DNA of 64,000 bases from Thioalkalivibrio sp. ALE31 (GTDB lineage: Bacteria; Pseudomonadota; Gammaproteobacteria; Ectothiorhodospirales; Ectothiorhodospiraceae), in the NCBI RefSeq assembly GCF_000377405.1, contig NZ_KB905021.1, positions 1 to 64,000 of the forward strand, given 5' to 3'. The notes beneath the pieces are model-generated. The model did not search any database. It had not been told where the DNA came from and was given only the letters and a program-made list of their open reading frames with translations. The position numbers were made by a program, and so were the translations under genes. The first letter of the stretch is position 1. Every line of letters begins with the position of its first letter. Shown piece by piece: positions 9,727 to 11,203 of this stretch.

Positions 9727-10049
9727 CTTTGCTCCACTCCTCTTCTTGATGCGTATCCATTCGGCCCGTGGACGGGCTCTGGGTTATTGGACGGAGAAAA
9801 GACCGGAGAATTCCCTGCAATTCCCGATCCCCGCCCGGGGATTGTAGCGGAGCCGGGAACAACGATGAGAAGCCACCCGAGGAGCACAACCCAGAAGAGG
9901 CCGGGCCAACAGCCCTCCACCTTCGGCAGGACGCAGATTGACGCCGCAGGGCCTGAGGGAATGATTGCCACTCACGGGCGCGATCGTGCCTGACCCGTGC
10001 CAGAAGCACCGCATGGTTGGTTGCCCGTCAATGCTGAAATGCGGACATG
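9727..10049. other. Intergenic stretch between the MBL gene and the tRNA-derived repeats
   Basis: No gene is recognised. A minus-strand TACAAT (9841-9846) about 115 nt upstream of the MBL-fold start at 9726 is a possible -10. The rest has no clear dyads or coding signal. It marks the end of the tRNA-repeat array. Confidence 0.5.
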
Positions 10050-10693
10050 CCAAACCGAGGGGCACACCGCTATGGCGGGGGACCAGGATGATTCGGCGGC
10101 TGCCCCGCCTCACCCCTTCGGGGCTGCACGCGCGGCGCGCGGGCAGTGCTCCGCTGCGCTTCGCCGAACCTTCCAGGTTCGAACCCTGGACTCGCTCATA
10201 TATCCATAGAAAAGGGCCCCACGAGGGGGCCCTTCTCCGAAGGTAGCGACCAGTTTGAGGCAAATGACGGTGAGCCCCATCGAGGGGCACACCGCCATGG
10301 CTGGGGGACCAGGATGATTCGGCGGCTGCGCCGCCTCACCCCTTCGGGGCTGCACGCGCGGCGCGCGCGCAGTGCTTCGCTACGCTTCGCCGAACCTTCC
10401 AGGTTCGAACCCTGGACTCGCTCAAATATCCATAGAAAAGGGCCCCGCGAAGGGGCTTCACCTGAAGGAGTGACCATTCTGAAGCAAATGACGGTGAGCC
10501 CCATCGAGGGGCACACCGCCATGGCTGGGGGACCAGGATGATTCGGCGGCTACGCCGCCTCACCCCTTCGGGGCTGCACGCGCGGCGCGCGTGCAGTGCT
10601 CCGCTGCGCTTCGCCGAACCTTCCAGGTTCGAACCCTGGGCTCGCTCATATATCCATAGAAAAGGGCCCCACGAGGGGGCCCTTTTCTATGGA
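10050..10693 (-). repeat. Three tandem units carrying the tRNA-Gln 3' end (rtT-like array)
   Basis: Read on the minus strand, downstream of tRNA-Gln, three near-identical units follow. Each ends with a copy of the tRNA 3' terminus: TGGCTGGGGGACCAGGAT at 10522-10539 and 10298-10315 on the plus strand, and a slightly damaged copy at 10073-10089. Spacing is 224 and 225 bp, and 172 bp from the tRNA to the first copy. Each unit also has an inverted T-arm-like element (CCAGGTTCGAACCCTGG), a GGCGGC/GCCGCC hairpin, a CCCC-UUCG-GGGG tetraloop hairpin and a terminator-like AAAAGGGCCCC stem. No ORF is kept in all units. The design resembles the tyrT (rtT) repeats of E. coli but the sequence is different. 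Confidence 0.8.
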
Positions 10694-10694
10694 T
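10652..10694 (-). terminator. Terminator directly abutting tRNA-Gln
   Basis: A perfect 19-bp stem, ATCCATAGAAAAGGGCCCC (10652-10670) against GGGGCCCTTTTCTATGGAT (10676-10694) with a 5-nt loop. On the minus strand the arm after the loop is GGGGCCC followed by TTTTCTAT. Its first transcribed base overlaps the final A of the tRNA CCA end. Shorter versions occur in the two distal units. Confidence 0.75.
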
Positions 10695-10767
10695 GGCTGG
10701 GGGACCAGGATTCGAACCTGGGTTGACGGAGTCAGAGTCCGTAGTCCTACCGCTAGACGATCCCCCA
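10694..10767 (-). tRNA. glnT-like (tRNA-Gln): tRNA-Gln (CTG anticodon)
   Basis: The minus strand folds as a 74-nt cloverleaf: acceptor TGGGGGA/TCCCCCA, D-arm with AGCGGTAGG, anticodon stem ACGGA/TCCGT around loop CTCTGAC (anticodon CTG), T-arm CCAGG-TTCGAAT-CCTGG, discriminator G and encoded CCA. It begins 43 bp after the rpsI stop in the same direction, so it may be cut from the rplM-rpsI transcript; a weak TAAAAT near the rpsI stop could also serve as its own -10. The gene symbol is only indicative. Confidence 0.95.
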
Positions 10768-10810: not shown

Positions 10811-11203
10811 TTAACGCTTCGAGTACTGGGTTGCACGACGGGCCTTGCGCAGGCCGATCTTCTTCCGCTCCACCTCGCGGGCATCGCGGGTCAGATGACC
10901 ACCACGACGCAGCGGCGAGCGCAGCTCTTCGTTGTACTGCACCAGGGCGCGGGCAATGCCCAGGCGGATCGCACCGGCCTGGCCGTTACCACCACCGCCC
11001 TCGACGGTTGCGATCACGTCGAAGTTTTCGGTGGACTCGGTCGCCTCCAGCGGCTGGCGCACGACCATGCGCGAGGTCTGGCGGCCGAAGAACTCGTCCA
11101 GCGGCTTCTGGTTAACCGTGATGTTGCCCGTACCCGGGCGCAGGAAGACGCGCGCAGCGGCGGTCTTGCGGCGGCCGGTGCCGTAATACTGATTGGTAGC
11201 CAT
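10811..11203 (-). CDS. rpsI: 30S ribosomal protein S9
   Basis: A 130-residue protein with the S9 signatures [14 protein letters not shown] at the N-terminus, [19 protein letters not shown], and the basic C-terminus ending [12 protein letters not shown], whose terminal Lys-Arg reaches the P-site tRNA. Length equals the E. coli protein. The start at 11203 aligns with [13 protein letters not shown] of E. coli S9 and is preceded by AAGGGAAT. It follows rplM by 31 bp in the conserved rplM-rpsI order, with tRNA-Gln next downstream. Confidence 0.97.

Follow-up and report, generated by a model that had tools for sequence, protein, structure and literature searches.

What is the array that follows the tRNA-Gln(CTG) gene of Thioalkalivibrio sp. 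ALE31, in which the 3' end of the tRNA recurs three times, and by what route could it have arisen? The window analyzed here comprises the 64,000 nt from position 1 to 64,000 of contig NZ_KB905021.1 (assembly GCF_000377405.1), and the array occupies its minus strand (Table 1). A sequence-only reading of this stretch had described recurrences of the tRNA 3' terminus at 10522, at 10298, and, in altered form, at 10073, within three tandem units of 224 to 225 bp that each carried an inverted T-arm and strong hairpins, and this description was borne out. The 18-nt minus-strand sequence ATCCTGGTCCCCCAGCCA, which corresponds to nt 59 to 76 in the standard tRNA numbering, has exact matches in the gene itself (10694-10711) and at 10522-10539 and 10298-10315, and the third copy differs from it by one missing base; the chance expectation for one given 18-mer is about 3e-8 per kb on two strands. 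The units are in register at 9993-10216, 10219-10442, and 10443-10666, with identities of 74%, 100% (reference), and 91%, and are spaced 224 to 226 nt apart (n = 3). The inverted T-arm is present in all three, where it overlaps a perfect GAACCT/AGGTTC hairpin, and a GC-rich hairpin cluster is found in each. A strong hairpin formed by a 19-bp inverted repeat separates the tRNA gene from unit 1; this repeat is absent from the list produced by the terminator scan, probably because the T run lies inside the stem. In layout, each unit is a degenerate copy of the 3' end of tRNA-Gln, with a four-hairpin cassette filling the T-loop at position 58/59. A coding function was considered and rejected, the array containing only overlapping short frames; in E. 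coli, the tpr gene is located in rttR.

Table 1. Coordinates of the array behind tRNA-Gln(CTG) in the window, with related cassette loci elsewhere
Feature	Position or locus	Strand	Basis or remark
rpsI, upstream of tRNA-Gln(CTG)	10814-11203	-	
tRNA-Gln(CTG), CCA encoded, host of the array	10694..10767	-	ARAGORN; Rfam RF00005, 61.4 bits
19-bp perfect inverted repeat, terminator-like hairpin	10652..10694	-	Directly 3' of CCA
RtT-type unit 1 (trailer hairpin, inverted T-arm, hairpin 0, cassette, tRNA-end copy)	10522..10693	-	RF00391 10522-10655, 31.7 bits, E 4.8e-4; R1 10536-10620, 28.2 bits
Unit 1, inverted T-arm (left arm of closing stem)	10623..10639	-	Hairpin 0 at 10616-10630
Unit 1, four-hairpin cassette	10536..10620	-	T-loop position (GGTTCG...|ATCC); R1 E 2e-5
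Unit 1, exact copy of tRNA-Gln nt 59-76	10522..10539	-	
RtT-type unit 2	10298..10521	-	RF00391 10298-10431, 33.1 bits, E 2.1e-4; R1 10312-10396, 25.5 bits, E 1e-4
Unit 2, inverted T-arm	10399-10415	-	
Unit 2, exact tRNA-end copy	10298-10315	-	
RtT-type unit 3, degenerate	10073..10297	-	RF00391 10072-10205, 24.3 bits, E 0.033; R1 10086-10185, 24.0 bits, E 2.5e-4
Unit 3, inverted T-arm	10173-10189	-	
Unit 3, tRNA-end copy	10073-10089	-	One base missing
Trailer-hairpin arm copies GGGGCCCTTTTCTATGGAT	10202..10220 (unit 3), 10428-10446 (unit 2), 10652-10670 (unit 1)	-	Each before the core
Interrupted tRNA-Gln(TTG) copies	G000 (2), G122 (2), G223		Own-genome pair at G000:C2:380903-381254; a further, third copy in G122 is the tenth overall
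Interrupted tRNA-Ser(TGA) copies	G000, G122, G237		
Interrupted tRNA-Ser(GCT) copy	G264		
Cassettes in dispersed repeats	L263-L276, L280, L281		Other genomes of the genus

The resemblance to the rtT repeats of E. coli that had been noted from the sequence proved to be one of kinship. At a relaxed threshold, the Rfam model of RtT (RF00391) spans its positions 1 to 130 on all three units and on the correct strand, which is an end-to-end match to the RtT consensus and structure. The curated gathering cutoff of this model is 45 bits, and all three units score below it; therefore, we name them RtT type and do not file them as Rfam members. A sibling unit at tRNA-Ser(CGA) in the same genome lies above the cutoff, at 57.5 bits. 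The array units are placed 3' of a same-strand tRNA and end in the 3' end of that tRNA (18/18 in units 1 and 2), and their host is tRNA-Gln(CTG) and not the tRNA-Tyr (tyrT) operon, which is the place of the first discovery of RtT and not its definition. A covariance model of the core, R1, was derived from an alignment (A1) of 18 cores from 17 genomes of other families, with none from the family of the window, and it recovers exactly the same three units in the 64 kb, with modest scores of 24 to 28 bits and a next-best match at an E value of 0.84; the initial hairpins of unit 3 align poorly to it. R1 also identifies three units, at 37 to 44 bits, at the E. coli tyrT/tyrV locus (L147), and core motifs are shared among Thioalkalivibrio, E. 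coli tyrT, and 17 other genomes.

Support for the structure came from covariation. RNAalifold, applied to a MAFFT alignment of 87 nonredundant cores, which include those of E. coli and of the window's own genome and leave out 20 of 132 matches, returned two short stems only, we think because the variable stems were misaligned; covariation was therefore counted on the 18-core subset. There, 90.6% of the cells of the R1 helices are paired, compared with 73.3% after shuffling (0 of 500 shuffles as high), and 19 of 25 pairs show changes on both sides; slid controls gave 31 to 44%. These counts are biased toward a positive outcome because the cores had been picked for a similar first hairpin (hairpin A) and the structure was written by hand.

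The units are conserved in relatives and vary in number among them, so that the lack of conservation named by the sequence-only reading as part of a refutation is not observed: RtT-type units follow tRNA-Gln(CTG) at all 12 Thioalkalivibrio rpsI loci, with 1 to 3 units per strain. R1 detects 17 units at 10 of these loci, and the remaining two carry a unit cut by the contig end (L016) and a truncated unit (L020). At four loci (L010, L013, L017, and L018), a type-B unit with an R1 score of 56 to 60 bits precedes a type-A unit like those of the window, and the type-B units are near E. coli RtT in layout. The proposal that the array is an unrelated, convergent counterpart of rtT, which had accompanied the first description, can draw on scores below the Rfam cutoff; it is contradicted by the Rfam and R1 matches on all three units, by the shared motifs and covarying structure, and by the type-B units of intermediate form at the same tRNA, and neither unrelated sequence nor convergence retains any appreciable probability. 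From these matches and intermediates, we read the array as a divergent branch of the known RtT kind. Like E. coli RtT (tyrT/tyrV, rttR), it consists of tandem units after a tRNA, with a left arm complementary to the tRNA end, hairpin 0, a four-hairpin core with CCCGAAGGG, and a right end that copies the 3' end of the host tRNA together with its CCA. It differs from E. coli RtT in its tRNA-Gln(CTG) host, in its GC-rich, divergent core, in its longer units (224 to 226 nt, compared with 178 nt between two of the three R1 matches in L147), and in a closing stem that, by reading, spans only the T-stem portion.

Units of this type are widespread. RF00391 matched 66 of 369 genomes of the class at an E value of ≤0.001, 24 of them over the cutoff, and 1 of 14 control genomes, that of E. 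coli; in a draw across the phylum, it matched 37 of 299 genomes at an E value of ≤1e-4, 22 of which came from one family of another class. The hosts of RF00391 matches are tRNAs for Gln, Ser, Tyr, Arg, Glu, Val, Lys, and Pro. For the relationship between units and hosts, we used the flanks of 132 of 133 matches in the class (that at G264:C155 was left out), 101 of which follow a same-strand tRNA whose end lies no more than 700 nt upstream (Ser, 49; Gln, 33; Tyr, 10; Arg, 5; Glu, 3; Val, 1); the other 31 were left out of the count. The last 19 nt of the unit are identical to the 3' end of the local tRNA in 62 of the 101 and match it at 17 or more positions in 82, with a mean match of 17.33; by comparison, tRNAs with other anticodons, taken from other genomes, gave a mean of 12.69, and 13.7% of these 8,766 pairs reached at least 17/19. 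When tRNAs of the same anticodon but with differing tails were compared, the local tRNA fitted better in 800 pairs and the foreign tRNA in 37, with 41 ties, although these pairs are not independent. A replication set of 27 matches from 15 genomes outside the first tracking set, 3 of them without a tRNA, gave a similar result, with 19 of 24 ends at ≥17/19 versus 6.7% of 462 pairs, and added Lys and Pro to the hosts; two of the five ends that fell below this level had been scored against a neighboring Val tRNA despite their Lys-like ends. Fourteen matches that lack a cleanly separate upstream tRNA were inspected; some lie at contig ends, some overlap a tRNA, some are displaced copies, and some are unexplained. 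At four places (G223:C17:36161, G264:C29:24, G264:C242:3805, and G350:C5:120192), RtT units lie by or in displaced tRNA 3' halves that begin near the anticodon loop, as islands leave them. At G000:C1:742796-743123, a tRNA-Ser-like 3' end precedes two units at a contig end; the body of this tRNA presumably lies beyond the contig.

The copied segment has a sharp inner boundary. Over 87 of the 101 units (81 distinct), which had been prefiltered at ≥15/19 matches, identity to the tRNA gene is 0.00 to 0.01 at nt 54 to 57, 0.80 at nt 58, and 0.98 at nt 59 and remains at 0.94 to 1.00 from there to A76; after CCA, it steps down to 0.80 and decays to about 0.5 across the trailer, which means that the copy frequently takes in the terminator as well. 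Each unit's left arm was compared with its own right end, and the two pair at a score of ≥7 in 46 of 87 units, over as many as 18 bp, compared with 14.7% when the ends of other tRNAs are substituted and 6.6% with shuffled left regions, and in G327 and G083 the arm covers all 18 nt, CCA included. The four-hairpin cassette sits at T-loop position 58/59, and GA^A is the junction between its ends and the host sequence in most of the cases read; the array units read TTCGG, and not TTCGA, to the left of the cassette, and so their left junction departs from GA^A. Hosts with TTCGAATC account for 98 of 101 tRNAs, compared with 17 of 45 distinct tRNA calls of the window's own genome (pseudo-calls included), a preference that is biased because RF00391 and R1 both end in AATCC.

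The cassette also occurs in a second geometry, within a nearly complete tRNA copy that lacks the CCA end and stands upstream of the intact gene. Nine such interrupted copies were read in five genomes, upstream of intact tRNA-Gln(TTG), tRNA-Ser(TGA), and tRNA-Ser(GCT) genes (Table 1), with the cassette between TTCGA and ATCC or their equivalents. Identity to the neighboring intact tRNA over nt 14 to 58 is at least 40/45 for 8 of the 132 matches and 45/45 in six of these; in this comparison, 24 of the 132 lacked a tRNA within 400 nt. Tandem tRNA-Gln(TTG) copies with upstream sequence and a T-loop cassette were seen at L106 1069-1358 (G000:C2) and G122:C1:491261-491811. In tRNA-Phe, the T-loop of which reads TTCGATTC, the cassette is inverted (three units, L306, L324, and L310, in two genomes). 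At L306, TTCGAT is followed by the inverted cassette and then by the remaining tRNA end, so that the strand of the cassette reads GA^ATC; this reading is found in two of the three units, L324 being like L306 and L310 being altered. The orientation of the cassette at tRNA-Phe follows the sequence.

The cassette is not confined to tRNA genes. R1 matched 29 of 30 genomes of the genus at an E value of ≤1e-4 and yielded 74 matches at ≤1e-6 in 9 of 10 chosen genomes; of 30 of these loci that were examined, 17 lie behind same-strand tRNAs, 3 are the inverted tRNA-Phe units, 2 (an identical pair) are at the ends of rrn operons, and 8 are at other, dispersed sites. The rrn end at L307 was confirmed by Rfam (5S and 23S). 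At L325 (G517:C1:1376636-1376716), behind tRNA-Lys, a cassette is seemingly nested within the first hairpin of another. Twenty further loci came from fragmented genomes of the genus, 4 with tRNA-Gln(TTG) units and 16 in which no tRNA was found, and in the latter the cassette lies in a dispersed repeat, where, to the extent that the flank reveals it, an inverted repeat holds the cassette in one of its arms. Of the 28 R1 matches in G673, nine places were inspected. In the window's own genome, weak R1 matches (E = 0.011 to 0.067) at L257, L258, L259, and L261 fall in a GTCATTGCGAGG...CCTCGCAATGAC repeat; the match at L260 was set aside as a seemingly chance match to coding DNA. Judged by eye, one arm of the dispersed repeats carries the cassette and the other arm does not. 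The search for a predicted empty site of a dispersed repeat gave no match in G608 and a single match, with two mismatches, in G264. RF00391 has no match at an E value of ≤0.01 at eight loci with rrn, dispersed, or tRNA-Phe cassettes, and the link of these sites to RtT therefore rests on R1. Other observations at such sites include an R1 match of 32.7 bits at L058 4512-4595, in a repeat that nearby reads GACAGGAATGTC without the cassette; a 254-bp block shared at 94.9% by L322 and L330 in G122, a genome in which seven dispersed matches score 65.7 to 66.4 bits with R1; and a group II intron domain (RF00029, 42.6 bits) at L326 1828-1934 in G264, a few hundred nucleotides from a dispersed cassette.

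The same cassette stands behind two 5S rRNA genes of E. coli K-12, where R1 scores 71.7 bits both at the rrfB end (E = 7.6e-19; L333 333-416) and at the rrfA end (E = 4.1e-18; L337 513-596); in the rrfB cassette, every modeled R1 pair is standard in the alignment. The order at rrnA and rrnB is the 5S end, a first terminator, a small hairpin (TCCTGAGTAGGA), the cassette, a second copy of AACTGCCAGGCATCAAAT, and a second terminator, so that the cassette is flanked by two copies of the same 18 nt, 13 from the 5S gene and 5 from its trailer. The terminators around the cassette are known as T1 and T2, the spacer between which is used in many expression vectors. This spacer is like the array in its cassette (by R1), in its order, and in its 18-nt copy of an RNA end and unlike it in having a 5S rRNA host, a single unit, and a presence that varies between strains. 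The cassette is absent from the examined ends of rrnH, rrnG, rrnE, and rrnC (rrnD was outside the set). The rrn cassette was found in 3,914 of 5,426 E. coli genomes, at 1 to 9 places in each (median, 2), and at the rrnA-mobB locus at least 80% of a filled query was covered in 1,167 of the 5,426; among the 40 matches listed for this locus, 9 are fully filled and 29 begin at query base 164, at the second 5S copy, and two of those 29 genomes, read directly, have an empty rrnA site. The rrn cassette is thus present in some E. coli strains and absent from others. One cassette family occurs behind many tRNAs, at the ends of E. coli rrnA and rrnB, and in dispersed inverted repeats.

We suggest that these sites belong to a single family of small insertions into stable-RNA genes that has received little study, and we lean, by a little more than an even chance, toward a DNA-level insertion cassette that duplicates the end of its host RNA as the best explanation of the array. 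The inverted cassette at tRNA-Phe, the rrn ends, and the dispersed repeats favor insertion at the level of DNA over an RNA made for tRNA processing. Under the insertion account, the cassette would spread as a nonautonomous insertion at GA^A in hairpin-prone DNA, on either strand, and would be moved by an enzyme acting in trans that might come from the host or from another element; the 3' end of the stable RNA is duplicated with the cassette, which leaves one gene intact. Arrays might then be lengthened or shortened as their repeated ends recombine, giving the 1 to 3 units seen at this tRNA, and any role as RNA, in the stringent response or as a small RNA, would be secondary. It counts against insertion that neither a transposition event nor an enzyme nor a target-site duplication was seen for the cassette. 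The TTCGG junctions of the array units, the outcome of the empty-site searches, the lack of RF00391 matches at the eight loci, and the modest R1 scores weigh on the same side. Furthermore, presence or absence at rrn operons and the length of arrays could also be due to homologous recombination or gene conversion. The link to miniature inverted-repeat transposable elements (MITEs) and REP-like repeats is that one arm of such a repeat can hold the cassette, both in the window's own genome and in fragmented genomes of the genus; the array differs from MITEs in lacking long inverted ends; its ends are derived from tRNA, and no short target-site duplication was identified for its units.

Alternatively, each unit may be an RtT small RNA, a mimic of a tRNA minihelix with T-stem, acceptor strand, and CCA and with hairpins in place of the T-loop, freed by tRNA-processing enzymes and maintained by selection. 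This we consider rather unlikely, though far from negligible: E. coli rttR carries a small-RNA annotation, the stems covary, pairing of the left arm with the tRNA-derived end of its own unit exceeds both sets of controls, conservation is higher in the tRNA-end copy than in its flanks in units that had been prefiltered at ≥15/19, and RNAs of the RtT family have been detected beside tRNA-Asn and tRNA-Lys genes in Actinobacillus, according to passages of one report (PMC4986893). Selection for an RNA function could account just as well for the exact agreement of unit ends with the local tRNA. However, covarying stems would also be the expectation for an element folding as single-stranded DNA, a hairpin stands between tRNA-Gln(CTG) and unit 1, the cassette is inverted at tRNA-Phe and occurs behind 5S rRNA and in dispersed repeats with no tRNA found nearby, and alterations or truncations affect unit 3 and several units in relatives. 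A mobile cassette could serve as RNA at some loci, in which case both views would hold together. Plain tandem duplication, with slippage at a palindrome-rich tRNA end and homogenization of the tails by gene conversion, without movement or function, appears improbable; it accommodates the trailer hairpin in the copied block (identity of 0.80 past CCA, falling to about 0.5), the varying number of units, and a 175-bp variable-number tandem repeat at rtT that appears in a published table comparing Salmonella Paratyphi A and Typhi genomes (PMC2658671), yet the same covarying cassette recurs at many tRNAs, 5S ends, and dispersed repeats, the boundary at nt 58/59 is sharp, and an 18-nt tract is short for conversion by recombination, if longer with the trailer.

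We regard as very improbable the serial accretion of attachment sites by integrative elements, whose tyrosine recombinases would have left 224-nt relics at the tRNA 3' end. Direct repeats of that end do flank each unit in the manner of attL and attR, and displaced tRNA 3' halves occur at G264:C29, G264:C242, G350:C5, and G223:C17; against this, the units share a conserved noncoding four-hairpin core and not the varied remnants of elements, the same layout is seen at 5S rRNA genes, and the displaced halves resemble the work of ordinary islands that parted a tRNA from its RtT unit, as we infer. The stretches between copies, at about 224 nt, are too short for an integrase gene and are filled by the hairpin core. 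Nucleotides 59 to 76 of a tRNA are the stretch complementary to a retroviral primer-binding site, and priming of the retroviral kind was considered and rejected, since the 5S case is unrelated to a tRNA primer and the copied block extends into the terminator. Insertion solely in hairpin loops was likewise dropped as too strict a rule, given the 5S site GGGA^ACTGCC; this site is not known to be a hairpin loop, and so GA^A alone was kept as the site rule.

Returning to DNA-level insertion, a broader form of it is a tentative proposal that we would put at somewhat below an even chance: RtT units, the cassette of the rrnA/rrnB T1-T2 spacer, and the dispersed hairpin inserts may constitute a single family of miniature cassettes that inserts at GA^A, on either strand, in hairpin-prone DNA. 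T-loops and 5S ends would be its favored targets, and about the last 18 nt of the host RNA, together with the terminator, would be carried along or duplicated, so that a working gene is kept. Such a family would be a tRNA- and rRNA-directed mobile element without a gene of its own, possibly moving as folded single-stranded DNA.

Several of these features have precedents. RtT has been known mainly as a by-product of E. coli tyrT, with a proposed role in the stringent response, and its occurrence near tRNAs besides tRNA-Tyr is already in print (PMC4986893); rtT has been described as similar to dispersed elements of E. coli (PMC2965389) and as containing a tandem GA motif (PMC7657543), and its repeat number varies in Salmonella (PMC2658671). 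Among the listed matches from the open PMC literature, which leaves subscription papers mostly outside, we found neither the tracking of local tRNA ends and the T-loop 58/59 junction nor the inverted tRNA-Phe case and the link to the rrnA/rrnB spacer, and no paper there was found with rtT and rrnB both as whole words.

In summary, the array behind tRNA-Gln(CTG) belongs with units whose ends track the local tRNA across eight amino acid families and also in a second class of the phylum. Should the cassette prove mobile, a model organism would have harbored an overlooked tRNA- and rRNA-directed element, and the nature of RtT would become testable by the comparison of strains and by deletion in E. 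coli K-12.
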